Shown piece after piece: positions 1 through 61,448 of a DNA stretch of 64,000 nucleotides (within the stretch, counting starts at the first letter, position 1; each line of letters begins with the position of its first letter). The stretch is taken from the NCBI RefSeq assembly GCF_900499075.1, contig NZ_UIHC01000010.1, positions 1 to 64,000 of the forward strand, written 5' to 3'. Position numbers and translations under genes: made by a program. The notes below the pieces were generated by a model. It was not told the DNA's origin, searched no databases, and worked only from the letters and a program-made list of their open reading frames with translations. The stretch comes from Roseinatronobacter ekhonensis. Lineage in GTDB: Bacteria; Pseudomonadota; Alphaproteobacteria; Rhodobacterales; Rhodobacteraceae.

Positions 1-201
1 CTCAATCCAATTGAACGTCTTTGGGCGGTCTTGCACCATTATGTCACCCACAATCGCTACTACCGAAGTCAGAAGCAATTCGCCGACGCCATCCTTGCAT
101 TCATGCGTGAGACCATCCCGCAGGAATGGAAGAAATTCCGCGACAAGGTGTCAGATAACTTCCGCGTCATAACACACGAGAACTTTCGGGTTTTGGAGTA
201 G
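1..201 (+). CDS. IS630-family transposase, C-terminal 66 residues (cut by window edge)
   Basis: The reading frame is open from base 1 to a TAG at 199-201. It begins with LNPIERLW, the conserved C-terminal DDE-domain block of IS630/Tc1-type transposases that carries the last catalytic acidic residue (E in NPIE). The rest, rich in aromatic and basic residues, matches the usual tail of these enzymes. The start lies outside the window, so I cannot say whether the element is intact. I could not identify the terminal inverted repeat with confidence in the 85 bases that follow. Confidence 0.85.
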   Translation, partial: LNPIERLWAVLHHYVTHNRYYRSQKQFADAILAFMRETIPQEWKKFRDKVSDNFRVITHENFRVLE

Positions 202-257
202 AAGAAGTATAATAGAACGAATTGTTTATGGCGATTTCAGGTCTGGAAGTTGGCAAT

Positions 258-275
258 CGGGGGGCGCACCCCCCG
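258..275. terminator. GC hairpin between the transposase and the Hint gene
   Basis: A perfect 7-bp stem (CGGGGGG / CCCCCCG) closes a 4-base CGCA loop. It lies 12 bases past the stop of the Hint-domain gene (minus strand) and 57 bases past the transposase stop (plus strand). A run of six T follows on the plus strand, but 8 bases after the stem. It is plausible as a terminator for either neighbour; the spacing is not ideal. Confidence 0.45.
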
Positions 276-286
276 AAGCGCGTTTT

Positions 287-1021
287 TTAGTGTAGCCGTG
301 CCATGGGGACCATGTCCGATGCGCGCGCGGGAATCCGCCCAATCTTTGCAGCGAGCGACGGGTCTTGGCCGCGGGCTTGCAATTTTACCCAGCGCCGGAA
401 CTCTAGTGCCTGAGCGCGGGTCATGCGCGGGTAGCGACCGGGTCGGGCAAGCCGCGACGTGGTCCGCAGACCGTAGCACGACATAAGCGCAGAGCCGTCG
501 GTGTGGATGATTTCCTCTTGCGCAAAGGTCAGCATGTAGCTGGTCGCCTGTGCGGGAAGCGGCGCGCGAACGATCTCATTGTAGCCGTCCAGCAGCCCCG
601 CTTGTACCAGAAGGAACGGGTTCCCATAGCGCGCTTGGGCGAAGTCGCAGTCGAGCAGAACAAGCTGGCTGGGCAGAAGCGTGATGGCGCGGCGGTTTCC
701 AATGGCCCCTTTGGGCACATGCAGGGCTTGCGCAATCGAAGATTGGCGCGGGTCCGGCGTAACAGCGGTCGCGTCGATGCTTTCCAGCCTGCGCATGCCG
801 TGGTCGAAGGTCAGGACCATGTCGCCGGGTGCGAGGGTTTCAACCTTGCGCCAACCGGAATCCGTGGCCACCAAACGACCTGCCAGCAAGCCTTCGGCCA
901 AGCCGCCGAAATCGGGCAGGATGTGGTCCGTCGCGGCTGCGCTGGGCCAGACATCGCCCCGGTCTTGAATCGTGCAGTAACGTGCACTGGAACCAGTAAC
1001 CGTGTGAAGTGAGGTAAACAT
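287..1021 (-). CDS. Hint-domain protein
   Basis: A 244-residue protein. Its centre carries a Hedgehog/intein (Hint) module: GRLVATDSGWRKVETL, then PGDMVLTFDHG, and later HVPKGAIGNRR and LLPSQLVLL blocks. Such Hint proteins are abundant in Rhodobacteraceae, often as parts of secreted or self-processing proteins, but this family has no established job. The usual Cys at the splice junction is not seen; the corresponding stretch reads GLLAGRLVAT, so self-cleavage is doubtful. I chose the ATG at 1021 because GAGAGGA lies just upstream; a longer frame reaches 1156 but has no such site. A CtrA-like motif lies 54 bases upstream of the start. Confidence 0.8.
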   Translation of the reverse strand: MFTSLHTVTGSSARYCTIQDRGDVWPSAAATDHILPDFGGLAEGLLAGRLVATDSGWRKVETLAPGDMVLTFDHGMRRLESIDATAVTPDPRQSSIAQALHVPKGAIGNRRAITLLPSQLVLLDCDFAQARYGNPFLLVQAGLLDGYNEIVRAPLPAQATSYMLTFAQEEIIHTDGSALMSCYGLRTTSRLARPGRYPRMTRAQALEFRRWVKLQARGQDPSLAAKIGRIPARASDMVPMARLH

Positions 1022-1074
1022 CTGGTGTCCTCTCTTTGCGGTTGTGCCCCCCGACACGGGCGGCATATGCAGCA

Positions 1075-1092
1075 CGTTAACCAAGATTAACG
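1075..1092. promoter_or_regulatory. CtrA-like double TTAA motif upstream of the Hint gene
   Basis: The bases CGTTAAC-C-AAGATTAAC hold two TTAA half-sites six bases apart. The known CtrA box of alphaproteobacteria is TTAA-N7-TTAA(C), so the spacing here is one base short. The same 17-base string, with a single change in the middle, recurs at 56402-56418 in front of another uncharacterised gene. Confidence 0.4.
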
Positions 1093-1206
1093 GACGAAAT
1101 CGGGGACAAACTGAGGTATTTTCGGGAATTGTCGCCTTTGTTGTGCCGCAAAACACGACAGTGCCTGACTGGCTCTTGCAATTTAGGGTCGGGATTGCTT
1201 AGTCCT

Positions 1207-1223
1207 ACGCAATAATGTTGCGT
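1207..1223. promoter_or_regulatory. Perfect dyad, likely operator of the acyl-CoA ligase
   Basis: ACGCAA and TTGCGT form a perfect inverted repeat around a 5-base TAATG spacer, 54 bases before the ATG of the ligase gene. This size and position suit a TetR- or GntR-type repressor, the classes that commonly control fatty-acid ligases. A second perfect dyad, TGCATC-G-GATGCA, follows at 1235-1247. No cognate regulator is encoded nearby. Confidence 0.4.
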
Positions 1224-1276
1224 GCGCCTTGGGCTGCATCGGATGCACCGGCGCATTTCACACAGGGGAGGGGTCG

Positions 1277-2902
1277 ATGGGCTGGCTACAAGACGAAACC
1301 GGGTTGGAGAGATGCGCCGCGAACTACATGCCGCTGACGCCCTTGGCGCATTTGCGGCGTGCAGCGGACCTGTTTGCCGAGCGTGACGCCGTCCTTTATG
1401 GCACGGAGCGCCGCAGCTATGCCGAATATCACGCGCGGGTGTCGCGGCTTGCCTCGGCGCTGGCGGCGCGCGGGGTTGTGCCCGGCGATGTGGTGGCCAC
1501 GCTTTTACCCAATGTTCCAGCCCATGCAGAGGCGCATTTCGGTGTGCCCGCCTGCGGCGCCGTGTTGAACGCGATCAACACGCGGCTGGATGTAGACACG
1601 GTGCACTACACGCTTGGCCATGGTGGCGCAAAACTGCTTTTGGTTGATTCCGCGCTGCTTGATCTGGCCGAAGCAGCCTGCGCCATGTTGGAGAGCCCGC
1701 CCATTCTGGTCGAAGTGCCCGATGCGCAGGCGGGCATCACAGCAAGCGGCAAGCACCTAGCCTATGACGCGCTTTCGGCAGAGGGCGATCCGCATTTCGC
1801 GTGGATCATGCCGACCGATGAATGGGAAAGCATCGCGCTGAACTACACATCGGGCACGACAGGGCGCCCCAAAGGTGTGGTCTACCACCATAGAGGCGCG
1901 TATCTGTCCACGCTGTCGCAGCCTATTTCCTGGCAAATGACGCTGTTTCCCCGCTATCTGACCATCGTGCCAATGTTCCACTGCAACGCATGGTGCCACC
2001 CTTGGATGCTGCCCGCGATGGGCGGGGCGATGATCTGCCTGCGCGAGATCACTGCGGCGGGCGTGTATGATGCCATTGCCGATCAGGGCGCGACCCATCT
2101 GGCGGGCGCGCCAATCGTGTTGCAAACGATCATCAACGCAAAGGCGCACGAGCGCAAACGGTTCGATCATATCGTGCGGGTCTTTACCGCCGGTGCGCCC
2201 CCGCCTGCCGCAACGCTGGCGGCGATAGAACCTTTGGGCTTTGACGTGACGCAGGTTTACGGGCTGACCGAAACCTACGGCCCCGATACCGAATGCCTGT
2301 GGCATGACGGGTTCGATGACCTGACCGGCGACGACCGGGCAGAGGTCAAGGCCCGCACCGGGGTCGCCATGCCATTTATGGAGGACGTGACGGTCATGGA
2401 CCCCGACACGATGACTCCCGTGCCACGCAACGCGGCGGCCTTGGGCGAAATCATGCATCGCGGCAATGGTGTGATGAAAGGGTATTACAAGAACCCAGAG
2501 GCCACGGCGCAAGCCTTTGCGGGCGGCTGGTTCCATTCCGGTGACATCGCTTACCGGCACCCTGACGGCTATATCAAGATTGCAGATCGCGCCAAGGACA
2601 TCATCATCTCGGGCGGCGAGAACGTCTCTTCGGTAGAGGTTGAAGGCGTGCTTATGAAGCACCCCGCCGTGGCGCTGGCCGCCGTGGTGGCCAAACCCGA
2701 CGAGAAATGGGGCGAGGTGCCCTGTGCTTGCATCGAGCTGAAAGACGGGCAGGACGTGTCAGAGGCCGACCTGATCGCCTTTTGCCGTGAGCGTTTGGCA
2801 GGGTTCAAGACACCCAAGCGGGTGATTGTGCTGGACTTGCCCAAAACTTCGACCGGTAAGATCCAGAAATTCGAGCTGCGCGCACAGGTGCGTGATTTGT
2901 AA
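1277..2902 (+). CDS. AMP-forming short/medium-chain acyl-CoA ligase
   Basis: A 541-residue ANL-superfamily enzyme that would activate a carboxylic acid to its CoA thioester with ATP. It shows the P-loop-like LNYTSGTTGRPKGVV, the VYGLTETYGP block, the GWFHSGD motif and the C-terminal SGGENVSS hinge and KTSTGKIQK lysine motif. The VPMFHCNAWCHPW and AGAPPPAA stretches place it in the clade of short/medium-chain ligases that also contains DmdB, the methylmercaptopropionate-CoA ligase; the substrate cannot be told from sequence. The ATG at 1277 follows AGGGGAGGGG; a frame open from 1229 has no such site. A dyad operator candidate lies upstream. Confidence 0.9.
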   Translation: MGWLQDETGLERCAANYMPLTPLAHLRRAADLFAERDAVLYGTERRSYAEYHARVSRLASALAARGVVPGDVVATLLPNVPAHAEAHFGVPACGAVLNAINTRLDVDTVHYTLGHGGAKLLLVDSALLDLAEAACAMLESPPILVEVPDAQAGITASGKHLAYDALSAEGDPHFAWIMPTDEWESIALNYTSGTTGRPKGVVYHHRGAYLSTLSQPISWQMTLFPRYLTIVPMFHCNAWCHPWMLPAMGGAMICLREITAAGVYDAIADQGATHLAGAPIVLQTIINAKAHERKRFDHIVRVFTAGAPPPAATLAAIEPLGFDVTQVYGLTETYGPDTECLWHDGFDDLTGDDRAEVKARTGVAMPFMEDVTVMDPDTMTPVPRNAAALGEIMHRGNGVMKGYYKNPEATAQAFAGGWFHSGDIAYRHPDGYIKIADRAKDIIISGGENVSSVEVEGVLMKHPAVALAAVVAKPDEKWGEVPCACIELKDGQDVSEADLIAFCRERLAGFKTPKRVIVLDLPKTSTGKIQKFELRAQVRDL

Positions 2903-2968
2903 GCATCTGGTCATGGCGCGCGGCCTGGGATAGGGAATGGAAAACCCCGAAACCGGCCAAAGGGCGCC

Positions 2969-4003
2969 ATGACCGCGCTGGACAAGTATCGCAAACTGGA
3001 AGGGATCGGATTGTGGTCCGCGCGGGTCGAAGACCAGCGCCGCGAAGTCGTGGTCAATTTCGGCGATGCCACTTTGGTGATTTCCGACAGCCGCAGCATG
3101 CAGGTATTGTCTCATTGGTCCTTGCCAGCCGTGCGCAGGCACAATCCACGCGAACGGCCGGCGCTGTATAGCCCCGAAGGAGACGGGGCCGAGGTTCTGG
3201 AACTTGAAGATGATTGGCTGATCGACGCGTTGGAAGAGGTGCAGGCCGCGCTTGCCCCGCCCCGGCGGTGGCGCGACAGGCTGGGACCGCGCAGCTACGG
3301 CGTGTTGGGCCTGTTGACCCTTGCGGGTGTGGCGCTTGTTTTCCCGCCTGCGTTGAAACAGCACACGGCCGATGTGCTACCATGGACCACACGGCACGAG
3401 ATCGGCACGCGGCTTGCTGATGATCTGCAAAGCGGGGATACGGTTGCCTGTTCGGGTGCGCAGGGGCGCGCCGCGCTCGACGCGCTGCACCGCCAGGTGC
3501 TGGACCAACCGGTGGAATTGCGGGTGGTGCAAGGGACCGCGCGCCCGCGCGTCACAGGCTTTCCCGGCGGGGTCTATGTGATAGATGCGCGGCTTTTGGA
3601 CATGGCCGACAGCGCCGAAGCGCTGGCTGGCGCGCTGCTGCTGGCAGAGGCACGACTGCGCATTACCGATCCCGTGCGCCCGGTTCTGGATCATATCGGC
3701 ACGTTCCAGACCTTGGGGTTGCTGACATCTGGCGCTGTTCCGACCAGCGCTCTGACCGGCTACGCGGACGCGCATATCCGCGCGCCCGCACCCCTGCCCG
3801 AAGCGGCGACCCTGTTGTCGCGCTTTGCGGCGCTGGACCTTTCGTCGCGCCCGTTTGCCGACAATCCCGAACCGCTCGACCTCGATGCGGATGCGTTGCT
3901 TGCGGGCTTGCGTGCGGGCGACCCGATGGCAGGGCAGACCACAACCCGTGCGCTGCTGAGCGATGGTCAATGGGTCAGCTTGCAGAATATCTGCGCGTTC
4001 TAG
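2969..4003 (+). CDS. Membrane-anchored protein resembling a catalytically dead M48 peptidase
   Basis: A 344-residue protein with an N-terminal domain of about 95 residues, one membrane helix near residues 112-128 (SYGVLGLLTLAGVALVFPP) and a C-terminal domain. The C-terminal part follows the M48 peptidase pattern: FPGGVYVIDARLLD resembles the LPGG-x-Y-I-T strand, and LLAEARLRITDPVR (about 224-237) aligns with AHEIGHVAHRDPTR. Both zinc-binding His and the catalytic Glu of HExxH are therefore missing. By homology it belongs with Rhizobiales/Rhodobacterales M48-like proteins; by sequence it should not hydrolyse peptides. It starts 66 bases after the ligase gene, on the same strand, so the two may be cotranscribed. 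Confidence 0.75.
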   Translation: MTALDKYRKLEGIGLWSARVEDQRREVVVNFGDATLVISDSRSMQVLSHWSLPAVRRHNPRERPALYSPEGDGAEVLELEDDWLIDALEEVQAALAPPRRWRDRLGPRSYGVLGLLTLAGVALVFPPALKQHTADVLPWTTRHEIGTRLADDLQSGDTVACSGAQGRAALDALHRQVLDQPVELRVVQGTARPRVTGFPGGVYVIDARLLDMADSAEALAGALLLAEARLRITDPVRPVLDHIGTFQTLGLLTSGAVPTSALTGYADAHIRAPAPLPEAATLLSRFAALDLSSRPFADNPEPLDLDADALLAGLRAGDPMAGQTTTRALLSDGQWVSLQNICAF

Positions 4004-4058
4004 GGCTCTTCGGGCGAAAATCCGCGCGCGACTTGCCCTTTTCCAACATCTTTTTGTT

Positions 4059-4793
4059 TTAGCTGACCTCTTCAATCGCCCGGGCGATCAGGTTCAGACA
4101 GCGCGGCGATGAAAACCGGTGGTCTTCGTCCTTGACCAGTTCCAGCCGTAAGTCGGGGCAATCGGCATGCTCCATCAGGCGCAGCGGCACAGAGGTCGCG
4201 ACGGCGTCGTCCTTGGTGCCTTGCAACAACCGAACGGGAAACGGCAGGGGCAGGGGGCTGCGCAGCACAAGCTGGTCGCGCCCGTCCTCGAACAGCCGCC
4301 GGGTCAGGGTGTAGGGGGCGTCGTAGTCATTGAGCAGCGTCGTCTGGCCCTTCTCCAGGATCTCTGTGCGCTGGGCGTCGGTCAGGCCGGGCCACATGCT
4401 GTCCTCGGTAAAGTCCGGCGCGGCGGCAATCCCGACAAGTGCATGAACGCGCTGGGGCATGGCGCGCGCCAGCAGAAGCGCGATCCAGCCGCCCATGGAT
4501 GACCCAACCAGAACTTGCGGCCCCTCTGTCAGCGCACTGACCGCCGCCATCGCATCCGCCGCCCAATCGCCAATGCAGCCATCGGTGAACGCGCCAGAAC
4601 TTTCGCCATGCCCGGAATAGTCGAAGCGCAGGAAAGCGCGGCCTTGGCTGCGCGCCCAGTCCTCCAGCCAGACCGCCTTGGTGCCGGACATGTCCGACAT
4701 GAACCCGCCCAGAAACACAATTCCGGGGCCGGTGCCGTCGGTTTTGTGATAGGCCAGTTTGCGGCCCGTGTCGGTTGTCAGATAGTCAGCCAT
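4059..4793 (-). CDS. Alpha/beta hydrolase
   Basis: A 244-residue single-domain alpha/beta hydrolase. The nucleophile elbow is GSSMGGW, with Ser the expected nucleophile; DYSGHGESSG provides the usual HG-region signature and DEDHRFSS near the C-terminus carries the likely catalytic His. No signal peptide, so it is cytoplasmic. The family covers esterases and peptidases, and the substrate is unknown. Its ATG overlaps the end of the upstream MFS gene by 8 bases, so the two are translationally coupled; it may act on something the carrier moves. Confidence 0.85.
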   Translation of the reverse strand: MADYLTTDTGRKLAYHKTDGTGPGIVFLGGFMSDMSGTKAVWLEDWARSQGRAFLRFDYSGHGESSGAFTDGCIGDWAADAMAAVSALTEGPQVLVGSSMGGWIALLLARAMPQRVHALVGIAAAPDFTEDSMWPGLTDAQRTEILEKGQTTLLNDYDAPYTLTRRLFEDGRDQLVLRSPLPLPFPVRLLQGTKDDAVATSVPLRLMEHADCPDLRLELVKDEDHRFSSPRCLNLIARAIEEVS

Positions 4794-6081
4794 CGCCCAA
4801 TTCCTTCAATCCATACGCGACCCAAGCGCCGCCCAATGCCATCAGCGCGAACAGCGCCAGTGTCAGTTCCGCCCCGCCCAAGGCCGCCAAAGCGCCAAAG
4901 ACGCCGCTGGCCAGCAGAATCACGCCGATAACCGTGTTCGCAATCGCGGTATAGATCGCGCGGCGCTCGGGCGGGGCCATGTCAACGATATAGGTCGAGC
5001 GCCCCAGCCGCACGCCCTGATGCGCGACCATCAACCCGAAGAGCGCCAGCGGCATGGCCCAGACCGTGCCCGCCAGCCCGGCCACGCTGATCGCCAGCGC
5101 AAGCCCCATGGCTCCCGCGCCGATCACCCCTGTCAGCACCAACACCAGCCGCGAGGAGCGATCCGCCAGCCGCCCCCAGACATAGCTGGAAACCAGCGCC
5201 GCAACCGCCGCAGCCAGCACCAGCGCGCCCAAGCTTTGCAAGGCCGCGCTTTCCGATGCCAGCACGACGAACCATGGTGGCGCAAGTGCGGTTGCGGTCA
5301 GCAGCCCCCGTGCGATGATGAAACGGGCAAGGCCGCGATCTTCGCGCAGGTAGCGCAAGTTGGCTATAGCCGCCGCTGCGCCATTGCCGCCGCCTTCGGT
5401 TTCGCCCGGTTCTTCGCGCAGTCCGGCAAAGACCGCGCCCGCAAGAAACCATGCCAAGGCGGCAGCGATCAGCGCGCCCGCGACAATGGCAAAGCGCGCC
5501 TCTGCCAGCCAGATCAGTGCCAACGCGAAGGTGAACAAAACGCCCGCTGCCCATGTGCCCGCCAGCCCTGCAACCGTGCCGCGCTGACCTTTGGCGACGG
5601 TTTTGCCCAACACGTCTTTATAGGCGACCGACGCGGCCGAGCGCGATACCGCCAGCACCGCCAGCCCCAGCAGGATCAATATGCCTGCCGCGGCCCCTTG
5701 GGTGGTCAGCGCGGCGAGCGCAATGATCGCGGCGCCCAAGCCTTGCCCCAAAGCCGCGCCTGCCCATGCCCATTTGCGCCGTGCCATCGCCCGAATGCGC
5801 GCAGCGGTGAACAGCTGTGGCAGAAGCGCGCCCGCCTCGCGGATGGGCACCAGAAAGCCGATCATGGCCGCCGGTGCGCCCAGATAGGTCATCAGCCATG
5901 ACAGCACCAGTTTCGGGTCCACCAGCCCATCGGCGGATTTGTTCAGCCCCAAAGCCAACGCGTGACGCAGAAAGCTGCCCGGCTGCACCTTGCAGGCGGC
6001 GTCGGAGATGTCGCGGCAGACACGGCCCTCATCTTCGGAGGACAGCATGTCATAGGCGGTCTGGACGGCGGGGCGGGTCAT
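4786..6081 (-). CDS. MFS transporter
   Basis: A 431-residue integral membrane protein with about twelve hydrophobic segments. GLVDPKLVLSWLMTYLGAP starts the first helical pair, and YVWGRLADRSSRLVLV is the MFS-type loop with R/D/R charges. An N-terminal cytoplasmic stretch of about 45 residues precedes the first helix. The direction and substrate of transport cannot be inferred. It is the first gene of a two-gene unit with the alpha/beta hydrolase, and is divergent from thrS across a 116-base gap that must hold both promoters. Confidence 0.85.
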   Translation of the reverse strand: MTRPAVQTAYDMLSSEDEGRVCRDISDAACKVQPGSFLRHALALGLNKSADGLVDPKLVLSWLMTYLGAPAAMIGFLVPIREAGALLPQLFTAARIRAMARRKWAWAGAALGQGLGAAIIALAALTTQGAAAGILILLGLAVLAVSRSAASVAYKDVLGKTVAKGQRGTVAGLAGTWAAGVLFTFALALIWLAEARFAIVAGALIAAALAWFLAGAVFAGLREEPGETEGGGNGAAAAIANLRYLREDRGLARFIIARGLLTATALAPPWFVVLASESAALQSLGALVLAAAVAALVSSYVWGRLADRSSRLVLVLTGVIGAGAMGLALAISVAGLAGTVWAMPLALFGLMVAHQGVRLGRSTYIVDMAPPERRAIYTAIANTVIGVILLASGVFGALAALGGAELTLALFALMALGGAWVAYGLKELGDG

Positions 6082-6197
6082 TCATGCTCCTCTGGCTGCG
6101 TGCAACTTGACTTTCCCCGCGCCCAAGGTCAAACCCTGCGCCACATATAACCCGCAACCGGGCGTTCCGTGGGCGCCAAACAGACGAGGACCGGCTT

Positions 6198-8144
6198 ATG
6201 GCCCAGATTTCCCTGACATTTCCCGATGGCAATGCGCGTGACTATGATGCAGGCGTGACGGCCGCAGAGGTCGCAGACAGCATTTCCAAATCGCTGGGTA
6301 AAAAGGCCATTTCGGCAACGGTGAACGGCGTGCACTATGACCTGCAATGGCCGATCATGGGCGATGCCAGCATCGCCATTCACACCATGCAGGATGATGC
6401 CCAAGCGCTGGAGCTGATCCGCCACGATCTGGCGCATATCATGGCCCGCGCGGTGCAAGAGATCTGGCCGGATGTGAAAGTCACAATCGGCCCGGTGCGC
6501 GACAAGGGCTGGTTTTATGACTTTGACCGGGCGGAACCCTTCGTGCCCGAAGACCTCGCGCAGATCGAAGAGCGGATGCGCAAGATCATCAACGCACGAG
6601 AGGCTGTGCGCACCGAAGTCTGGGACCGCGCCCGCGCCATTCAGCACTACAAGGACGCGAATGAGCCGTTCAAGGTCGAACTGATCGACCGAATCCCCGA
6701 AGGCGAAGACCTGCGGATGTATTGGCATGGCGATTGGCAAGATCTGTGCCGTGGCCCCCATTTGCAGAACACCGGCCAAGTGCCGGGTGACGCATTCAAG
6801 CTGATGAGCATTGCAGGGGCCTATTGGCTGGGCGACAGCACGCGGCCCATGTTGCAGCGCATCTATGGCGTGGCGTTCAAAAACCGCAACGACCTGAAAG
6901 CGCATCTGACCATGCTGGAGGAAGCGGCCAAGCGCGACCACCGCCGCTTGGGCCGCGAGATGGACCTGTTTCATATGCAGGAAGAAGCGCCGGGGCAGAT
7001 TTTCTGGCACGCGAATGGCTGGAGCATCTACACCACGTTACAAGACTATATGCGCCGCCAGCAGCGCCGGGGCGGCTATGTCGAGGTGAATACGCCGCAG
7101 GTCGTGAACCGCAAGCTGTGGGAGGCATCCGGCCACTGGGACAATTACCAGGAAAACATGTTCATCGTCGAAGTGGACGAGGATCATGCGCGCGAGAAAA
7201 CCATCAACGCGCTGAAACCCATGAACTGCCCCTGCCATGTGCAGATTTTCAACGTGGGCCTGAAAAGCTACCGCGATCTGCCCTTGCGCATGGCCGAATT
7301 CGGGTCGTGCAACCGATATGAGCCATCGGGCGCGCTGCATGGTATCATGCGGGTGCGCGGTTTCACGCAGGATGATGCGCATATCTTCTGCACTGAGGCG
7401 CAGATCGAGGCGGAATCGAAGAAATTCATCGAGTTCTTGTCGGGCGTCTATGCCGATCTGGGCTTCACGCAATGGCGGATCAAACTGTCCACCCGGCCAG
7501 AACAGCGCATCGGGACCGAAGAAAGCTGGGATTACGCCGAGGACGCTTTGGCCAAGGCCGTGATCGCGGCGGGCCATAGCTACGAGATATTCGAGGGTGA
7601 GGGCGCGTTTTACGGCCCCAAGCTGGAATTCGTGCTGACCGATGCCATTGGCCGCGATTGGCAATGCGGCACGCTGCAAGTGGACCCGAACTTGCCCGAA
7701 CGTCTGGACGCCAGCTATATCGGGCAGGACGGCGAGAGGCATCGTCCCGTCATGCTGCACCGCGCCGTTCTGGGCAGTTTCGAGCGTTTCATCGGTATCC
7801 TGATCGAGAACTTCGCGGGCAAGCTGCCCCTGTGGTTGGCGCCGCGTCAGGTGGTTGTGGCGTCCATCGTGTCGGATGCGGATGACTACTGCCGCGAGGT
7901 GGTGGCGGCGTTGCAAGCCGCAGGGCTGCGCGCCGAGTTGGACCTGCGCAACGAGAAGATCAACTACAAGGTGCGCGAACATTCGCTTGGCAAAGTGCCG
8001 GTGATCTTGGCCGTGGGTGCGCGAGAGGTTGACGAGCGCACCGTGTCCGTGCGCCGCTTGGGCGACACCCGCACGCAGACGCAAACACTGGACGGGCTGG
8101 TGGCGGAACTTGTGGCAGAGGGCACAGCGCCGGATTTGCGGTAA
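6198..8144 (+). CDS. thrS: Threonyl-tRNA synthetase
   Basis: The 648-residue enzyme charges tRNA-Thr with threonine. The order is complete: an N-terminal TGS domain (about 1-62), the editing domain with the [11 protein letters not shown] zinc-site motif, and the class II catalytic core with [12 protein letters not shown] (zinc-binding Cys), [14 protein letters not shown] (motif 2) and [17 protein letters not shown] (motif 3). The C-terminal anticodon-binding domain ends with the typical ARE..R.V..RRLG sequence. GAGGA precedes the ATG. Length matches the family. No frameshift or missing motif is seen. Confidence 0.98.
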
Positions 8145-8174
8145 CATGCGGCAGAACCAATAAGGGGCGGCATC

Positions 8175-8354
8175 ATGTCTCTCGGATCATCCTCGGGCAG
8201 GGCTTTCGAGACAGGGATCGGGGCGGCCTTCTACGGTGTTTTGGTCCTGATCTCCGTGGTCTGGTGGGCCGCGCGCAGCTATCAAATTCGGAAGCAAGAG
8301 CGCGCGGAACAGGCCCGGGGGGCGGCGACCGAGGAGGATGGATGCAAGAGGTGA
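8175..8354 (+). CDS. 59-residue single-pass membrane protein
   Basis: A short frame starts with ATG 13 bases after AAGGGG and ends with TGA. It encodes a soluble N-terminus of about 13 residues, one hydrophobic helix (FYGVLVLISVVWWAA) and a charged tail rich in R, K and E. It begins 30 bases after thrS, on the same strand, so it can be read from the thrS transcript. I do not recognise the family. The ribosome site, composition (one helix followed by positive charges) and lack of overlap with a better gene support it, but it may be lineage-specific. Confidence 0.6.
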   Translation: MSLGSSSGRAFETGIGAAFYGVLVLISVVWWAARSYQIRKQERAEQARGAATEEDGCKR

Positions 8355-8363
8355 GCGCGCCGG

Positions 8364-9293
8364 TTACGGCAAAACCTGCAACCAGACCCAACCCGTCAGC
8401 ATGACCAGCCCCGTCCCGATCAGCGCCGAAGACGCCGCGACCCGTCTCGCGCGGCCATACATATTGGCAAACACATAGACATTGACCCCCGGCGCCATGG
8501 CCGCTGTCACTACAGCAGAGCGCAGCGCGTCGGTGGACAACCCGAACGCCTTGGCCAGCCCGAAGGTGATCGCCGGGTGGACCACCAGCGACAGGGTGAC
8601 GACAAAGCCGATCGTGCGCAGATCGCCCTCTGGCCGGTAGCGGTAGAGCACCCCGCCCAAGCTGAACAACGCCGCAGGCAGCGCCGCGCGTACCATCATG
8701 TCCAGCGCGTCATCCATCACGCGGGGCAGGGGCAGCCCCGACAGGTTTACGGCAAAGCCAAGGGCAATGGCGATCACCAGCGCGTTGTGGAACATGGCGC
8801 TGAACACCCGGCGGGCGGTATCGCGCAGCCGTCCGCCGCGATTGCGCATCAGCTCCATCGTGGTAATGCCGATGGCATAGCAGATCGGCGAATGCACCGC
8901 GATAATCGCGTAGTTGGCGGCCAGCGCATCCGCCCCGTAGGCGCGTTCCGAGATCGGCAGGCCCAGCAGCACCGTGTTTGAAAACAACGCGACAAAGCCG
9001 ATGGCCACGCAATCTTCCCAGTCGCGCTTGAAGAGCACGCGCGCACCGGCAAAGCCAAGTGCGAAACCGGCGACAGCGCCGGAATAGAAACTGACCAGCA
9101 ACCGCCAGTCGAATTCCTGCCCAAGGTCCAATCGCGAGATCGCTGTGAACAACAAGCAGGGAATGGCGAAGGTCTGGGTAAACCAGACCACGCCGTCCAC
9201 CTGGCTGTCAGAAATCAGGTTGCGCCAGCGGGCAACATAGCCAAAGCTGATGACCAGAAAGACCGGCAGGATGACATCGGCCAAGGCCTGCAT
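8364..9293 (-). CDS. AEC-family (auxin efflux carrier type) transporter
   Basis: A 309-residue protein with about ten membrane helices in two halves. The N-terminal LADVILPVFLVISFGYVARW and the middle region with PGVNVYVFANMYGR near the end are characteristic of the AEC/PIN-type family, whose bacterial members carry malonate, malate or other organic acids. The ATG lies 1 base past the MBL-hydrolase stop, so it is the last gene of the long minus-strand operon that begins with the SPOR lipoprotein. Substrate not predictable. Confidence 0.85.
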   Translation of the reverse strand: MQALADVILPVFLVISFGYVARWRNLISDSQVDGVVWFTQTFAIPCLLFTAISRLDLGQEFDWRLLVSFYSGAVAGFALGFAGARVLFKRDWEDCVAIGFVALFSNTVLLGLPISERAYGADALAANYAIIAVHSPICYAIGITTMELMRNRGGRLRDTARRVFSAMFHNALVIAIALGFAVNLSGLPLPRVMDDALDMMVRAALPAALFSLGGVLYRYRPEGDLRTIGFVVTLSLVVHPAITFGLAKAFGLSTDALRSAVVTAAMAPGVNVYVFANMYGRARRVAASSALIGTGLVMLTGWVWLQVLP

Positions 9294-16656: not shown

Positions 16657-16785
16657 GATCGGCGGCCTGTGCTGGCATCTTTCGCTTCACATATCATGTT
16701 GGTTTGGCAAGGAAAGACCCAGTAGCCTGTGACCCATGCGTCAATTATGGCGGCAAACCCTGTGCGGGACGGCCACAAAGCTATG

Positions 16786-17259
16786 CTACTCACCTCCAGC
16801 GGCGGCATACAGATCCTGCATCTCTGCAACGGTCAAAGATCCGGCTGCCGCATCCAGCCCGCGCTGGTCCAGCACCGTCTGGTTCAGGTGGCGGCGGTCT
16901 ATGTCGGCGGCGGCGCTTTCCAGATCACCTGCGGCCATATGCGCCAGAAAGCTCGTTGTCATGTTGAGCGCCGTTTCGGCTACCTGAAGGTCTGTCCGCC
17001 GCTCGAGGTTGCCCAAAACAAAGGCTTGTTGCGCGTCGGTCAGGGACAAAAAGGAATAACCCAGACTTTGCAGATCAACCGATGGGATCGACGCGTTTAT
17101 TCTGTTGCCCAAGGTGGCGGTGCCCCTGCCGACCGTCAGAGCGGCACTTAACCCGACCCCGAGCGCAGCCGCGCTCAACACCACCCAATCGACAGTGACG
17201 GCGCCGGTTTCGTCCGTCCATAGGCCCATTAGCAGGGTGTCGGCCGTCGAATCCCGCAT
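16786..17259 (-). CDS. Flp-pilin-like protein with an unusual C-terminal extension
   Basis: A 157-residue protein. Residues 13-40 (LWTDETGAVTVDWVVLSAAALGVGLSAAL) match the N-terminal part of small Flp/Fap pilins from Rhodobacterales: a charged GAVTVDW prepilin-type stretch followed by a hydrophobic helix. Flp pilins are normally about 60 residues, so roughly 100 residues here are extra, mainly helical, without cysteines. No tad/cpa pilus genes lie in the window. The ATG at 17259 follows GAGGACGAC; a longer frame to 17352 is rejected. Possibly a minor pilin or an exported protein that borrows a pilin leader. Confidence 0.65.
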   Translation of the reverse strand: MRDSTADTLLMGLWTDETGAVTVDWVVLSAAALGVGLSAALTVGRGTATLGNRINASIPSVDLQSLGYSFLSLTDAQQAFVLGNLERRTDLQVAETALNMTTSFLAHMAAGDLESAAADIDRRHLNQTVLDQRGLDAAAGSLTVAEMQDLYAAAGGE

Positions 17260-17449
17260 ATGTCGTCCTCGAGCACAGAAATAGGAACCGGTAAGGTTGC
17301 ACTTGAACGGGGCGTGGATATGGCGTTTTCGTGACAAAACTTTGCCGGGCACAGGGGTTCATCGCCCCGCCATGTCCGGTCCTTCCCCCTTGCGCGCCTG
17401 CCACCCCCCGACTAGGCTTGCCCCAAAATCCTAGGGGGAATTTCGCGTC

Positions 17450-18868
17450 ATGGCTTCCAGCACTGCCCTTGCGCGCGCGTTTGCTGCCGCGCTCGTCTTG
17501 TCCGCACCCGTCTTTGCGCCTGCCAATGCGCAGACGGACGGCGTTCTGACCCGCCAATATGAGGATGGCGGCATATACGAGGGCGAGTTCCGCGACGGCC
17601 TGCAACACGGCCAAGGCACATACCGGCTGCCCAACGGGTTCGAATATACCGGCGAATGGGTCGATGGGCAGATCAGCGGACAGGGCGTGGCGCGCTATCC
17701 GTCCGGCGCGGTCTATGAGGGCCAGTTCGCTGCCGGTCGGCCCGAAGGACAGGGCATGATGACCTTCGCGGACGGCTCCACCTATCAGGGCGACTGGGTC
17801 GAAGGCGCTATCACGGGGCAGGGCCGCCGTGTCTTTGCCAATGGCGCGGTCTACGAGGGTGCCTTTGTCAACGGCCAGCCCGAAGGCGAGGGCACGCTGA
17901 CGCGCGAGGACGGCTATGCCTATACCGGCACATGGGTTGCCGGTGCGCGCGAAGGGCAGGGGCGCATCGCCTATCCCGACGGCGCGGTTTATGAGGGCCA
18001 GATGCAGGCCGATCTGCGCCACGGCACCGGAACGCTGACCCGCCCCGACGGTGTGCGCTACGAGGGTGACTGGCAGGAAGGCGAATTGCACGGACAGGGC
18101 GTGCTGACGCAGGCCAATGGCGATGTCTATACCGGTGGCTTCCAGAACGGCATGCGGCAGGGCGAAGCGCGGGTGGAACAGGCCGACGGGCTGGTGTTCG
18201 AAGGGCAGTTCGTCAATGACCAACGCGACGGCCAAGGGCGTTTGACCGGCGAGGATGGCTACCTCTACGAGGGCACTTGGGTCGCGGGGCAAATCGCGGG
18301 CGACGGGCGGTTGGTGCAGCCTGACGGGTCCGAATATGTCGGCCAGTTCCGCGCGGGCCTGCCCGACGGGCAAGGCCGCATCACCTATGCCGATGGCGCG
18401 ACCTATGAGGGCGCTTGGCTGGACGGGCAGTTCCACGGGCAGGGCCGCGCGACCTTTGCCGACGGGTCCACCTATGAGGGCGAACATGTGCAGGGGCTCG
18501 CCGAAGGGCAGGGCGTCATGACCTTTGCCGATGGCCGCGTCTATACCGGCGCGTTCAAGGGCGGCGAGCTGCACGGGCAGGGCGAGATGACCTATCCCGA
18601 CGGCTCTGTCTATACCGGCGAATTCGTCGAAGGGCTGCGCGACGGGCAAGGCCGCATCGTGCTGGCGGACGGGTTCGTGTATGAAGGCGACTGGCAGGCG
18701 GGTGACATCACCGGCAGCGGGGTTGCGACCTATGCGACGGGCGATGTCTATGAAGGCGAGTTCGTGAACGGCCAGCGCGACGGCACTGGGGTGCTGCGCT
18801 ACGCGACCGGCGAAGTGCTGACGGGCGACTGGCAAGACGGCGTGATGACGGTGCGGGATGGGGAATGA
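17450..18868 (+). CDS. Exported MORN-repeat protein
   Basis: A 472-residue protein. A signal peptide (about 1-27, ending PANA) is followed by ten residues and then 18 complete 23-residue MORN repeats (37-450) plus a final degenerate copy (451-472). The repeat pattern is [F/Y]-x-D/N-G-x-x-Y-x-G-x-[F/W]-x-x-G-x-x-x-G-x-G. MORN sheets bind lipids or act as scaffolds; the bacterial exported ones have no fixed role. AGGGGGAA stands before the ATG. A strong terminator follows. It is divergent from the pilin-like gene across 190 bases. Confidence 0.88.
   Translation: MASSTALARAFAAALVLSAPVFAPANAQTDGVLTRQYEDGGIYEGEFRDGLQHGQGTYRLPNGFEYTGEWVDGQISGQGVARYPSGAVYEGQFAAGRPEGQGMMTFADGSTYQGDWVEGAITGQGRRVFANGAVYEGAFVNGQPEGEGTLTREDGYAYTGTWVAGAREGQGRIAYPDGAVYEGQMQADLRHGTGTLTRPDGVRYEGDWQEGELHGQGVLTQANGDVYTGGFQNGMRQGEARVEQADGLVFEGQFVNDQRDGQGRLTGEDGYLYEGTWVAGQIAGDGRLVQPDGSEYVGQFRAGLPDGQGRITYADGATYEGAWLDGQFHGQGRATFADGSTYEGEHVQGLAEGQGVMTFADGRVYTGAFKGGELHGQGEMTYPDGSVYTGEFVEGLRDGQGRIVLADGFVYEGDWQAGDITGSGVATYATGDVYEGEFVNGQRDGTGVLRYATGEVLTGDWQDGVMTVRDGE
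17558..18799 (+). repeat. 18 tandem 69-bp units encoding MORN repeats
   Basis: The coding repeat keeps exact 69-base periodicity with no insertions over 18 units. The most conserved positions code the DG-x-x-Y-x-G core. Units differ enough in codon choice that the array looks old rather than recently amplified. Confidence 0.85.
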
Positions 18869-18871
18869 GGT

Positions 18872-18906
18872 CAGCGGATGGCCGCAAGACCCTCATCCGC
18901 TGTTTT
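18872..18906 (+). terminator. Rho-independent terminator of the MORN gene
   Basis: CAGCGGATG and CATCCGCTG make a perfect 9-bp stem around a 13-base loop, followed at once by TTTT. It begins three bases after the MORN stop codon. Beyond it base composition drops sharply. Confidence 0.85.
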
Positions 18907-19080
18907 GTTATGATGCGAACGTGTTTCCATCAAGCGGGCAGAATATCATATTCTAAGGCAGCGATGGCTGACACAGCGTTAGTTTACTGCCATATATCTT
19001 TGGCGCAGAGCAACATGCACATTGGCTGCCTTTTGAGCTTGAACACCGATTTTCGTCTATTAGATCAATATAAACCCAAA

Positions 19081-20061
19081 TCATATGAACAGAATCTCCC
19101 GCTTGTTGAGATCATCTAGAATTGTCCACATTGGCTGAGGCCATACAACGCCCTCTTTTTTAAGTTCATCTACACGATTTCGAAAATGTGGGACGCTAAT
19201 GAGAGTGGAATCATGAAATTCAGCATAGAAGTTTGACATCGCGCTAATCGTATTTTCCATCATTTCACCCGGTTTCCGAATCTGAGCGCGGTTCAAATAC
19301 GTGACAATCGCGCTGCTTACAGTAAAGAAGCAAAACCCAATGATCATAATATTTATAAGAACGCTACCAAGCATTTCTGGGAACAAGTCAATATAGTTTG
19401 ATGCAGCAAGTACAAGAGCAATGCCAATCCCACTTCCACTAAGTGCAATCAGACTGTTAGTAAACCATGTTCCAAACACTGATTTTTGGTAGTTTTGGAA
19501 AATACTTTTCTTGGTGAAAAAATTAGGAGACAATACATAGTTAATATATTTTACGATCTCCGCTTCGGTTAAGCAAGCGAGCAAGATGCGATCAACATAT
19601 GCACTACGAAACTCGCTTTCGAGATACTCCCGAATACCACATTCGAGATCATCGATCCGAACGTTCATCCGTCCATTTTCGCTCGCCTCTTTTAGAAGGC
19701 TTTGCGGGTTCAACTCGCATGTCATTCTAAAATACTTGATAGCTTCGTTGTCTGAAAATTCTGCAAGACTTTCTGAGGTGTGATATGCGCCGAATGAGTC
19801 AGTGATATTTGATGCAATGATGTGAGCTTTTTCAAGAAAATCAGATGCGTTGTCGTCGGATGGATGCAGGCCTTGATCTTCGGATAGCTTTGCTGCTAAT
19901 TTAAGCATAGCTCTGGTAAAAAGGATCTTCTGTGAGTTTTCTTCGATAGTTCGGAGCGCCCATCGCGCATTTTTGGGCACGCGCAAGCTGTTACTAAGAA
20001 AAACTTCGATCAATTCACGGTAGCTGCGGTTTCTCGGTTTATCAAAGCCCGAATCGTGCAT
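19081..20061 (-). CDS. AT-rich two-helix membrane protein of unknown function
   Basis: A 326-residue protein I do not recognise. Residues 1-200 are soluble and helix-rich; two membrane helices follow at about 203-221 and 229-256, then a soluble tail of 70 residues. Base composition is unlike the rest of the window: hand counts of two 60-base lines (19381 and 19501) give 42 and 25 percent G+C against 67 percent in a line of the adjacent P450 gene. Codons ending in A/T dominate. This points to recent transfer. The ATG at 20061 has GAGG eight bases upstream; the frame is open to 20229 but the extra part runs through a tandem repeat and is rejected. The neighbours give no hint of function. Confidence 0.7.
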   Translation of the reverse strand: MHDSGFDKPRNRSYRELIEVFLSNSLRVPKNARWALRTIEENSQKILFTRAMLKLAAKLSEDQGLHPSDDNASDFLEKAHIIASNITDSFGAYHTSESLAEFSDNEAIKYFRMTCELNPQSLLKEASENGRMNVRIDDLECGIREYLESEFRSAYVDRILLACLTEAEIVKYINYVLSPNFFTKKSIFQNYQKSVFGTWFTNSLIALSGSGIGIALVLAASNYIDLFPEMLGSVLINIMIIGFCFFTVSSAIVTYLNRAQIRKPGEMMENTISAMSNFYAEFHDSTLISVPHFRNRVDELKKEGVVWPQPMWTILDDLNKREILFI

Positions 20062-20128
20062 GTTGGCCTCTATATTTTCGACTGAGATCTTATAAACGGG
20101 TTGCAAAAATTTCAAGATAAAGGCGCTT

Positions 20129-20166
20129 CGGGCTCTTCGCGTCTTAGCGGGCTCTTCGCGTCTTAG
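20129..20166. repeat. Two perfect tandem copies of a 19-bp sequence
   Basis: CGGGCTCTTCGCGTCTTAG occurs twice with no gap, 68 bases upstream of the AT-rich gene and 35 bases past the P450 stop. It marks one edge of the low-GC stretch. No copy is seen at the other edge (around 18870-19080). Confidence 0.9.
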
Positions 20167-20200
20167 TATGAAAACAAACCAAGAAGCAGATGCCACCACT

Positions 20201-21403
20201 TCACCCCACCAGCCCCTCCAACCGCGCATAGCCCCGGAACCGTATCCGCCCGCCCGGGACCCGTGCGCCCTCTAGTCGATACCGGGGATACCGCGCCAGA
20301 AAGCGGCTGACGGCCACTTTCCCTTCCAGCCGGGCCAAGGTCAGCCCGACGCAGACATGCGGGCCGCCTGCAAAAGCCAGATGCCGGTTCGGTTTGCGGG
20401 TTATGTCGAACGTCTCAGGCGCGTCGAACACCGCCGGGTCGCGGTTCGCGGCCCCTATGCACAGGTGCAGCACCGTGCCCGCTGGCACTGCGACCCCGCC
20501 GATCTCGACATCCTCCACCGCCTGCCGGTTGCCGAACTGATTGGGCGAGAGATACCGCAGGCATTCCTCTATCGTGGGCGCGATCAACTCCGGCGCGTCT
20601 AGCAACCGCGCCCGCGCGTCGGGAAAATCATCCAGCAGCGCAAGCGTGTTGCCGATCAGGTTGGTCGTCGTTTCATGTCCCGCGTTCAGGATGAAGATGC
20701 AATTCTGCAATAGCTCTGTTTCCGACAGGGTTTCCCCCTCGCGGGTGCCCATGATGAGCCGCGTCAGCACATCCACCTCCGGGTCGCCGGGGGCCGTGCG
20801 CCGCCGCGCGACCAGCCCTTCCAGATAGGCGGTAAACTCAGTCACAGCGGTGTTCCCGCGCGCCAGCACCTCTGGCCCCGGTGCCGGTTCCAGCGCGCCG
20901 AGGATCGCCAGCGACCAGTCGCGCAAGGGGCCGCGTTCGTCATGCGGCACGTCCAGCAGGTTGCCGATAATCTCTACCGGAATCGCCGAGGCAAACTCTT
21001 CGATCAGGTCCACGCGCGGTCCCATGCGGTCCAGTAGCGCATCGACCGTGGCCACCAGCCCCGGCTCCATCCGTGCAATCGCGCGCGGGGTCAGGGCAGA
21101 GGCCATGATCTTGCGCACCCGCGTGTGCAAGGGCGGATCGTTGAACACCAGCGAGTTGGTGTGATGCGTGTAGAGGGCCGCGTCCCGCCCGAAAACCGGC
21201 GCGAACATTGCCTGCTTGTCCGACGAAAACCGCGCAGTGTCGCGATACACCATGTCCAGATCGGCATGGCGCGACAGCAGCACGGACCCATCGGGCAGCC
21301 GCAGAACCGGTGTGTCGCGCAGCAAGGTCGCATAGGTCGGGAAAGGGTCTTCCAAAAAGCCCGCCGGCGGGGCGGCAAGGTCGAAGAGCGCGGTCGCTGG
21401 CAT
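20201..21403 (-). CDS. Cytochrome P450
   Basis: A 400-residue soluble bacterial P450. The haem-binding motif is FAGGPHVCVG with the thiolate Cys at 351. The I helix carries AGHETTTN (proton-relay Thr) and the K helix E-x-x-R reads EECLR. Its size and lack of a membrane anchor indicate a class I enzyme needing a ferredoxin and a reductase, neither of which is encoded nearby. Substrate unknown. It is divergent from lptF over 131 bases. Confidence 0.93.
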   Translation of the reverse strand: MPATALFDLAAPPAGFLEDPFPTYATLLRDTPVLRLPDGSVLLSRHADLDMVYRDTARFSSDKQAMFAPVFGRDAALYTHHTNSLVFNDPPLHTRVRKIMASALTPRAIARMEPGLVATVDALLDRMGPRVDLIEEFASAIPVEIIGNLLDVPHDERGPLRDWSLAILGALEPAPGPEVLARGNTAVTEFTAYLEGLVARRRTAPGDPEVDVLTRLIMGTREGETLSETELLQNCIFILNAGHETTTNLIGNTLALLDDFPDARARLLDAPELIAPTIEECLRYLSPNQFGNRQAVEDVEIGGVAVPAGTVLHLCIGAANRDPAVFDAPETFDITRKPNRHLAFAGGPHVCVGLTLARLEGKVAVSRFLARYPRYRLEGARVPGGRIRFRGYARLEGLVG

Positions 21404-21534
21404 GGTTAATCCTCCTGCCCGCCAGATTGAGCGACATTTTCGCCCCCGACAAGCCCGTGCGCCCGCTTCGGCGTGGCAATCGACTGCCTTTGCCGTTAAG
21501 GTCCGGAAAGTACTTCCGAAGGACGCCCCCTCGC

Positions 21535-41855: not shown

Positions 41856-43454
41856 TCAGCCGATTGCGGCCTGCTTCACCGTGTCGTCGATATAGGGCAC
41901 GTATTGCGCGAAATTCTCGGCAAACATCTCGACCAGCTTCTGGGCCTGTGCGTCATAAGCCTCTGAGCTTTCCCAAGTGCGGCGCGGGTCCAGCAACACA
42001 TCGGCCACGCCCGGCACCGAAATGGGCACCAAGAAGCCGAAATTCGGATCGCGGCGGAACTCTGCGTCTTTCAATGATCCGTCCAGTGCCGCGGTTAGCA
42101 GCGCACGGGTAGCGCGGATCGGCATACGAGAGCCGGTGCCATAGGCGCCGCCAGTCCAGCCGGTATTGACCAGCCAGCATTCCGCACCGAATTCGGCGAT
42201 CTTGTCTTGCAGCAGCTTGCCATAAACTTCGGGACGGCGCGGCATGAACGGCGCGCCAAAGCAGGTAGAGAAGGTCGGCTGCGGTTCGGTCACGCCCTGC
42301 TCTGTGCCCGCCACTTTCGATGTGAAGCCCGACAGGAAATGATACATAGCCTGCGCCGGGGTCAGCCGCGCGATCGGGGGCAGCACGCCGAATGCATCGC
42401 AGGTCAGCATGATGACGTTTTTCGGCACGCCACCCAGCGAGGTTTCCGACGCGTTCGAAATCGCATCCAGCGGGTAGGCGACGCGGGTGTTCGCGGTCAG
42501 GCTGTCATCCTCGAAATCCAGCTCCAGCGTGTCGGGGTCATGGACCATGTTTTCCACGACAGACCCGAAGCGGTGGGTCGTGGCATAAATTTCCGGCTCT
42601 GCTTCGGCATTCAGGTTGATGGTCTTGGCGTAGCAGCCACCTTCGAAGTTGAAGATGCCGGTATCGGACCAGCCATGCTCGTCATCGCCAATCAGAATGC
42701 GCGAGGGGTCGGCCGAGAGCGTGGTCTTGCCCGTGCCCGACAGGCCGAAAAACACCGCCGCGTCATCCGGGTTGTCGATGGCGTGGTTGGCCGAGCAATG
42801 CATTGGCATGATGCCTTTTTCGGGCAGCAGGTTGTTCAGCAGGGTGAACACCGATTTCTTGTTCTCGCCCGCATAGGCGGTGTTCGCGATCAGGATCAGC
42901 TTGCGCTCGAAATCCAGCGCGATTACGGTGTCCGACCGGCAGCCGTGGCGCGCGGGGTCAGCCTTGAAGCTGGGGCAGTTGATGATGGTAAATTCGGGGG
43001 CGAATGTCGCCAGTTCTTCGGCCCCTGGCCGACGCAGCAGGTGGCGGATGAAAAGGCCATGCCACGCCAGTTCGGTCACGACGCGCACATCCAGACGGTG
43101 CGCAGGGTCGGCGCCGCCATACAGGTCCTGCACGAACAGGTCGCGGCCTTTGACATGCGCCAGCATGTCTTCATACAGACGCTCGAACGCGTCGGGCGCC
43201 ATGGGCGCATTGTTGTCCCACCAGATACTGTCTTCGACGCTGGCACGCCGCACGACGAATTTGTCCTTGGGCGAACGTCCCGTATGTGCGCCGGTCGTGG
43301 CAAGAAACGCGCCCCCAAGCCCCAGTTGCCCTTCGCCACGCGCGATGGCCTCGTTCATCAGCGCCGGTTCAAGCAGGTTGTAATAGGCCCGTGCCGCGCC
43401 GGTGATACCTTGATCTTCCAAGCGTTGGGTCGGGTTAACACGGGGGTTTGACAT
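41856..43454 (-). CDS. pckA: ATP-dependent phosphoenolpyruvate carboxykinase
   Basis: A 532-residue gluconeogenic enzyme: oxaloacetate plus ATP to PEP. The kinase P-loop is [24 protein letters not shown] and the metal-site HCSANHA and DDEHGWSD blocks are present. I start it at 43454 where GGAGCAGG lies upstream; an ATG at 43469 is a possible alternative. The 342-base region before it holds paired direct repeats. Its partner enzyme pyruvate carboxylase is encoded at 57800. Confidence 0.97.
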
Positions 43455-43796
43455 GAGGGCCTGCTCCATCTGGCGTGCGACATAGTGCTTACTGGCGCGC
43501 AATGCGTCGGTTTCAGTGGGTCGCAAGTGCCGCGACTGTCCACGTATTGGCTTTAACACCACGAATACGGCAAATCATAGGCGAGATTGTTGCCGTTAGC
43601 GCAACCAACACCAAGTTAGCGCAATATCAAGGATTGGGGCGCATCATTCTGTTGCAGTTCGGCACGACCTGCTGGGCGAATCATGCTGTATCTGGCTGCA
43701 AGCACTATTTTTGTTGCACAAAAAAGGAATTTGGGCATAGTTGTGGCAAAAATAAGGCGAACTCGCCAGACCAGAGCAGTATAAAAGGACAGGCAA
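43455..43796. promoter_or_regulatory. Intergenic region with pckA and chvI promoters
   Basis: This 342-base gap between divergent pckA and chvI has no gene that I credit. It contains GTTAGCGCAA twice in direct orientation (43595-43604 and 43615-43624), exactly 20 bases apart. On the minus strand a TATGAT -10-like hexamer at 43574-43579 follows the nearer repeat, with a TTGCGC -35-like hexamer inside the repeat at a long 19-base spacing. The chvI side is AT-rich (43700-43795); no clear -35/-10 pair is visible there, though TATAAAAGGA precedes the start and provides the SD. Confidence 0.5.
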
Positions 43797-44495
43797 ATGT
43801 CGAAAATCGCATTGGTCGATGATGACCGTAATATTTTGACCTCAGTGTCAATCTGCCTCGAATCCGAAGGGTTTGAGGTTGAAACCTATAATGACGGTCA
43901 GGCGGCACTGGATGCCTTCAACCGCAAGCTGCCCGACATGGCGGTGCTGGACATGAAAATGCCGCGCATGGACGGGATGGAGCTGTTGCAGCGCCTGCGC
44001 CAAAAAACCCAGATGCCGGTCATTTTCCTGACCTCGAAAGATGACGAGATTGACGAGGTTCTGGGCCTGCGCATGGGCGCGGACGACTATGTCAAAAAAC
44101 CGTTTTCGCAACGCCTGCTTGTCGAGCGCATCCGTGCTTTGTTGCGCCGCAAACAGGCCAATGAAGGCGTGATCGAAGCCGGCGAGGAAGCCAAGATCCT
44201 TGTCCGTGGCAATCTGGAAATGGACCCGCTGCGCCATCAAGTGAAATGGAAGGGAGAGGATGTCACCCTTACGGTCACCGAATTCCTGCTGCTGCAGGCG
44301 CTCGCTGCCCGTCCCGGCGTGGTCAAGTCGCGGGACCAGTTGATGGACGTGGCTTATGACGATCAAGTCTATGTCGATGACCGCACCATCGACAGCCACA
44401 TCAAGCGTCTGCGCAAAAAGATGCGGTCGGTCGATACAGAGTTTTCGTCGATCGAAACGCTATACGGTATCGGTTACAAGTATAACGAAGCGTGA
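43797..44495 (+). CDS. chvI: Response regulator ChvI
   Basis: A 232-residue OmpR-type regulator. The receiver domain has the acidic DDD triad at 8-10, phosphoacceptor Asp52 in [16 protein letters not shown] and DDYVKKPF. A winged-helix DNA-binding domain follows (about 130-230), with [10 protein letters not shown] and [14 protein letters not shown]. In alphaproteobacteria ChvI responds to acid and envelope stress through ChvG and is usually essential or nearly so. AAGGACAGG precedes the ATG. Confidence 0.95.
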
Positions 44496-44534
44496 CGCAG
44501 CGAATGCGGCGCGCGTCATCGGGCAGGTGACATC

Positions 44535-61306: not shown

Positions 61307-61448
61307 GATGCGCTTGCGCCCCTGTCGCCATGCGGATTTGTGGCTTTGGTGCCAGACGGCGCAATGCGGGGTTGCCTTGCAAGGGGAATCGGGCAACCCT
61401 CGTAATTGTCCGTTTTCGATCCTTCACGCCAAACCGATAGGTCCGCAT

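Follow-up and report, generated by a model that had tools for sequence, protein, structure and literature searches.

In the window (the whole 64,000-nucleotide stretch analysed), a short AT-rich island fills the gap between two convergent conserved genes, for a MORN-repeat protein and a cytochrome P450 (Table 1). The island is 1326 bp long, with a GC content of 42.9% compared with 62.6% around it. Against a baseline of non-overlapping 1326-bp windows across the 64 kb, this corresponds to z = -9.6 (0.429 versus a mean of 0.626, sd 0.020, minimum 0.548), and the dinucleotide distance of the island, 0.146, exceeded the maximum of all other windows (0.119). Third-position GC was 0.43 in the island gene, and 0.78 and 0.80 in the neighbour genes. 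The ends of the island were set by alignment to sister genomes: position 18869 is the base after the MORN stop codon, and six bases separate 20194 from the end of the P450 gene. The AT-rich stretch reported in a preliminary description of this DNA was thus borne out and given sharper limits. The next-lowest GC stretch of the window lies at 43405-44730 (54.8%).

The island was found to hold one gene, of 326 aa, and no second, as the preliminary description had claimed. The open frame reaches 20229, with its stop at 19081-19083. The ATG at 20061 was favoured as the start because a Shine-Dalgarno-like AGAGG lies upstream and because two relatives, when aligned, start at the same position. A sigma-70-like promoter match occurs further upstream, of a kind expected 2.1 times by chance in the region. 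The gene is single-copy in its genome. An 84-aa frame on the opposite strand (18865-19119, plus) was taken as chance, and no RNA family reached gathering score in 18500-20600.

Neither edge feature of the island is remarkable, though both are present. A terminator on the MORN side had been called strong; a hairpin followed by a T run does exist there, but its strength is moderate, as the stem at 18867-18906 with its T run (-15.4 kcal/mol) was equalled by 11 of 200 shuffles, and a simple terminator scan did not list it. A second candidate terminator, at 20202-20183, was rejected as weak, with 47 of 200 shuffles folding as well. On the P450 side, the 19-bp tandem repeat of the earlier account was recovered as an exact two-copy array. 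Sister genome G036 has a related single copy of the unit, matching at 13 of 14 bases, in the same place, and the P450-side edge of the window's gap survives only as this trace inside the repeat. The repeat was also considered as an insertion signature and rejected: its own genome gave three matches at up to three mismatches, compared with two for a reversed control, and since two of the three are the array itself, the unit is not a genome-wide repeat.

Table 1. Features of the island and its flanks in window coordinates, followed by cargoes at the equivalent site in congeners and full-length relatives of the island protein
Feature	Location	Strand	Basis or remark
MORN-repeat protein gene, conserved flank	17450..18868	+	17 repeats; Pfam PF02493, synteny
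Terminator-like hairpin and T run	18867..18909	+	after MORN gene
AT-rich island	18869..20194	.	whole MORN-P450 gap
Orphan gene, 326 aa	19081..20061	-	membrane-anchored protein of unnamed, sparsely distributed family
C-terminal soluble domain, residues 258-326	19084..19290	-	most conserved part; alignments, model
Signature G-x2-W-P-x6-L-D-D-x3-R, residues 304-321	19099..19152	-	invariant in 7/7 sequences
Adjacent pair of membrane helices, residues about 200-222 and 223-257	19291..19464	-	hydropathy
Shine-Dalgarno-like AGAGG	20067..20071	-	five bases before ATG; read from sequence
Sigma-70-like promoter match TTGAAA-17-TAAGAT	20087..20115	-	9 of 12
19-bp tandem duplication, exact, two copies	20129..20166	+	P450-side edge of island
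Cytochrome P450 gene, conserved flank	20201..21403	-	Pfam PF00067, synteny
Gap cargo, G036			VOC protein and YjbR-like frame
Gap cargo, G015			124-aa protein
Gap cargo, G019	L037 6223-7834		359-aa and 216-aa genes
Gap cargo, G028			306-aa protein
PARIS-like fusion, G032	L043 300-1868		AT-rich; convergent with P450 at its 3' end
Relative L064			Sulfitobacter dubius, 334 aa
Relative L065			MAG labelled Paracoccus haematequi, 334 aa
Relative L066			Rubellimicrobium MAG, 330 aa

The island protein and its relatives

The protein combines a helical N-terminal part of about 195 residues, a pair of membrane helices and a small conserved C-terminal domain. The preliminary description had placed the two helices at the C-terminus. 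Hydropathy supports the pair, but the helices are internal, and about 69 conserved residues follow them. Basic residues outside both helices and an acidic short loop between them suggest that both protein ends are cytoplasmic, with the hairpin in the inner membrane. No invariant set of catalytic-type residues was found in the N-terminal part when it was aligned with relatives, a mild argument against its being a nuclease or NTPase. The model of the whole protein, based on a shallow alignment of four rows, was weak (mean pLDDT 61), with the C-terminal part at about 85; modelled alone, the C-terminal domain gave a pLDDT of 79 and a predicted helix-strand-helix-helix-strand order.

HMM and structure searches, which the preliminary description had proposed as a check, assigned the 326-residue protein to no housekeeping or other family. 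It had no PADLOC (PADLOC-DB 2.0.0), NCBIfam or PHROG assignment and no Pfam match above cut-off. The Pfam row for DUF4271 (PF14093; residues 216-303 of a 382-aa frame) was rejected at 20.1 bits compared with a cut-off of 29.7, as were ATP-synthase delta and ribosomal L29 rows among PDB sequences, which were below cut-off or at E > 0.05. Foldseek gave no match at E ≤ 0.001 with either the weak whole-protein model or the C-terminal domain, and the best VIA Z scores, 4.7 and 3.9 respectively, brought no informative PDB match, though the protein may still have a known fold. Phage and plasmid records held no match to the window protein, and no relative was found in viral contigs or in one early scan of genome contigs; tblastn against plasmids with the Sulfitobacter protein gave one weak match (E 0.05, Komagataeibacter). 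No paper on the family or the site was recognised in the literature searches, for which a family name was lacking.

Relatives were nevertheless found in other genomes. Three are full-length, at 24-27% identity (Table 1), and an equivalent helix pair was seen by hydropathy in all three and in the fragment of a fourth, G259, in which a frame change breaks the gene upstream of an intact C-terminal stretch. Two relatives are more distant: a 358-aa protein in G952 retains the N- and C-terminal parts but shows no clear hairpin, and in G658 the C-terminal domain stands alone, at 81 aa. With the window genome included, the counts were 5/394, 2/385, 2/398 and 3/390 in draws that overlap. The first of these is a raw count that includes a match in G166 (E 0.005, a 77-aa frame with four stops) dropped as chance, which leaves three of 393 other genomes as carriers of a relative in the family draw. 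Four genomes have an open full-length copy despite such low identity, and selection has therefore maintained the protein through a long divergence.

Every copy of the family lies in a different genomic place, and the listed neighbours included no conserved target gene. L065 and L066 likewise sit on AT-rich inserts of one gene between unrelated neighbours (47% versus 65% GC, and 46% versus 68%), whereas the Sulfitobacter copy is not of odd composition (53.6% versus 56.5%). The G259 copy (L053 8619-10970) starts about 150 bp after tRNA-Ser(cga), near a truncated serine-recombinase-like frame and an IS3-like gene, both named by reading the sequence, and is likely part of an old integrated element. 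In G658, a single gene separates the 81-aa domain from a resolvase-like gene, similarly recognised, and the contig also bears a VapE-like gene. The surrounding stretch (L063 2184-8273) looks like a satellite or mobile element; it also encodes a small protein whose membrane helix is C-terminal, and the domain gene is convergent there.

Gene turnover between the MORN and P450 genes

A protein match to the island gene was found in none of 36 congeners and in none of 63 other relatives of the same draw. DNA of three sister genomes (G036, G028 and G019) was then aligned to the whole window. Blocks of at least 150 bp missing from all three were 1-792, 8145-8359, 16703-17375, 18869-20194 and 61311-61531, and among these only the island was AT-rich (GC 0.43 versus 0.59-0.64). 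Its extreme composition, the absence of its gene from all 36 congeners and its own absence from the aligned sisters together support well the conclusion that the gene is foreign and was horizontally acquired. The foreign single-gene insert of the preliminary description is upheld by these data.

Other differences from the sisters were seen elsewhere in the window. The missing block at 16703-17375 overlaps a gene between NadE and MORN (16786-17352, minus strand) for a 188-aa protein with a TM-like segment and without a Pfam match. This protein evolves very fast: it had no DNA match in the three sisters and was not found in G019, and its relatives in G036 and G028 are 41-48% identical at the protein level. 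For positions 1-8364, the fetched parts of G036 and G019 gave no matching DNA, while G028 covers most of this region from 793; the edge near 8.36 kb could mark a rearrangement breakpoint, or simply the point where the fetched DNA stops.

The gene order NadE-MORN-gap-P450-LptF/G/D is kept in G036 and G019. G028 has the same order with the P450 gene lost, about 60 bp of its 3' end remaining beside the cargo; the deletion (at L039/L019 in G028) corresponds to window positions 20257-21461. The contig of G015 ends within MORN and covers the site from there to LptD. Within this clade the gap cargo was unrelated in 5/5 genomes, the window included, and no cargo DNA was common to any two gaps. The comparison of the syntenic interval in sisters suggested by the preliminary description thus gave absence of the gene and other cargo each time. 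With four congeners of the same synteny carrying four unrelated cargoes, the identification of the gap as a gene-turnover hotspot is strongly supported. In addition, G036 and G028 have both gap edges in common (80 bp at 89% and 53 bp at 85%) with differing cargo between them, indicating that the cargo was exchanged between the edges.

Among the stretches fetched from more distant congeners, none had a MORN relative close to P450. Of 12 such P450 loci, seven had a long frame convergent with P450 after 26-349 bases; these were classed as of MoCo-binding type, one of the seven having been tested and confirmed by Pfam. Among the other five, one was too short, one was unclear, two differed, and one (G032) had an AT-rich gene for a 522-aa protein. 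The G032 site was seen from the P450 side only, as the contig ends on the other side.

The available text of Oliveira et al. 2017 (PMC5635113) describes hotspots between core genes for many of which exchange of accessory cargo through the flanking genes is proposed. The gap studied here resembles these in having the same flanks, different accessory cargo in sisters and no recognisable mobile element. It differs in being very small (0.7-1.7 kb), in lying between convergent genes, and in having been compared across species of a genus rather than strains. No integrase frame, tRNA, or att-like or flanking repeat was found to mark the island, and our best guess is therefore that cargo has probably been swapped by homologous recombination in the flanking genes.

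A possible role in phage defence

Cargo at the same site in other congeners includes defence-type genes. The G019 pair was identified by Pfam as GmrSD_N/DUF262 (PF03235, 1.8e-33) and RiboL-PSP-HEPN (PF18735, 1.2e-14). In PADLOC, its first gene matched NsnA (1.8e-72) and PD-T4-2_A (6.3e-46), and its second had no match. As far as the consulted text of a review goes, PD-T4-2 is listed with both DUF262 and the PF18735 HEPN (PMC10952713), and an excerpt of PMC9519451 reports increased T4 plaquing once PD-T4-2 had been deleted from the strain in which it naturally occurs. This PD-T4-2-like pair occupies the same gap as the island and is unrelated in sequence to the window protein. The G032 protein joins AAA_21 (28.6 bits) to DUF4435 (35.3 bits) on a single chain and matched AriAB in PADLOC (9.5e-58). 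Both scores are above the PARIS thresholds of 27 and 27 given in the part of PMC9122126 available, where a single-gene fusion form is also noted. This ATPase and DUF4435 (Toprim-type) protein is likewise unrelated to the window protein.

Two of the five other cargoes (G019 and G032) therefore resemble known defence; the other three were not recognisable as defence genes with Pfam or PADLOC, a weak 'Cyclase' row for the 306-aa protein of G028 (E 0.04) not being trusted. Ten conserved neighbour proteins of the window had no PADLOC match. At least two defence cargoes in five would arise by chance with a probability of roughly 0.1-2% if 1-5% of accessory genes are assumed to be recognisable defence genes, an estimate made after the fact, with an assumed rate and a small sample. 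Defence genes are named as examples of short-lived adaptive hotspot cargo in the text available from PMC5635113.

These two cargoes, the patchy distribution of the family, the relatives near mobile elements and the effector-like layout point to a defence role, for which we consider the chances about even. The phage-defence guess of the preliminary description has gained indirect support from the DUF262 and HEPN pair and the PARIS-like fusion in congeners, but is held back by the lack of a PADLOC match for the protein itself and by the three cargoes not recognisable as defence. Our best explanation, tentatively favoured at somewhat under an even chance, is that the island gene encodes a single-gene, membrane-anchored anti-phage effector of the abortive-infection type. 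The island would be one occupant of the hotspot between the two convergent conserved genes, and the product an inner-membrane protein with a helical cytoplasmic N-terminus, a two-helix hairpin and a small cytoplasmic C-terminal domain. The cytoplasmic part would sense infection, the protein would then assemble or rearrange, and the hairpin would damage or depolarise the membrane, halting the infected cell before phages are released. Membrane damage or depolarisation by the hairpin is less probable than the defence role as such, and may not be the core function, given the relative (G952) without a clear hairpin.

Two-helix membrane effectors occur in abortive-infection systems, for example those of CBASS and type III CRISPR; in these, as is predicted for the window protein, two membrane helices are joined to cytoplasmic domains. 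For the window protein, neither a recognised sensor domain nor a partner signalling gene came to light, the island having no second gene and the weak fold model giving no informative match, and there was no sequence match to these effectors. A further, somewhat doubtful proposal is that it represents a new single-gene anti-phage family, combining a hairpin, a helical sensor and the signature domain, which on a satellite-like element also travels by itself, in a compact single-slot MORN-P450 defence hotspot. What is established is a real foreign single-gene island of an unnamed family at a small turnover hotspot. It is a good candidate for a phage assay, with defence not proven. Should the defence role prove true, the gene represents a single-gene anti-phage family not recognised before, and an interval of about 1 kb flanked by two ordinary genes can serve as a single-slot defence locus in an alphaproteobacterial genus, in which comparing that interval between species can reveal candidates. 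Otherwise, there is still clear cargo turnover without a mobile element, and a conserved C-terminal domain without known function.

Other readings would account for parts of these data. The gene could encode an acquired accessory membrane protein unrelated to phage defence, such as a stress factor or regulator tethered to the membrane, which would bind DNA or a partner through its C-terminal domain. The VOC/YjbR proteins and a secreted-looking protein held by the same gap elsewhere are consistent with this, as are a predicted C-terminal topology reminiscent of a minimal winged helix and the retention of N- and C-terminal parts in G952. We judge it rather unlikely, however, as no DNA-binding family was matched, winged-helix proteins were absent among the Foldseek and VIA rows for the C-terminal domain (predicted H-b-H-H-b), the relatives lie beside no conserved target gene, and two of the other five cargoes are of defence type. 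A selfish or almost neutral passenger gene, toxin-like or from a mobile element, that moves through the hotspot with no lasting gain for its host would fit the rare and patchy occurrence of the family, the broken G259 relative and the stand-alone domain on a satellite-like element. The open full-length copies in four genomes imply long selection, and defence genes too are typically rare and prone to loss, which makes this reading unlikely. Lastly, the lack of a named family could suggest an ordinary lineage-specific core gene of odd composition, or decaying non-coding AT-rich DNA. This is extremely improbable given the absence from all congeners, the distant full-length relatives with the same architecture, and the different cargo at the same place in sisters. 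A gene of normal composition at this position in related genera, or a clear housekeeping match, either of which would have spoken against the preliminary description, was looked for and did not occur; the gap instead held a different cargo in each sister.
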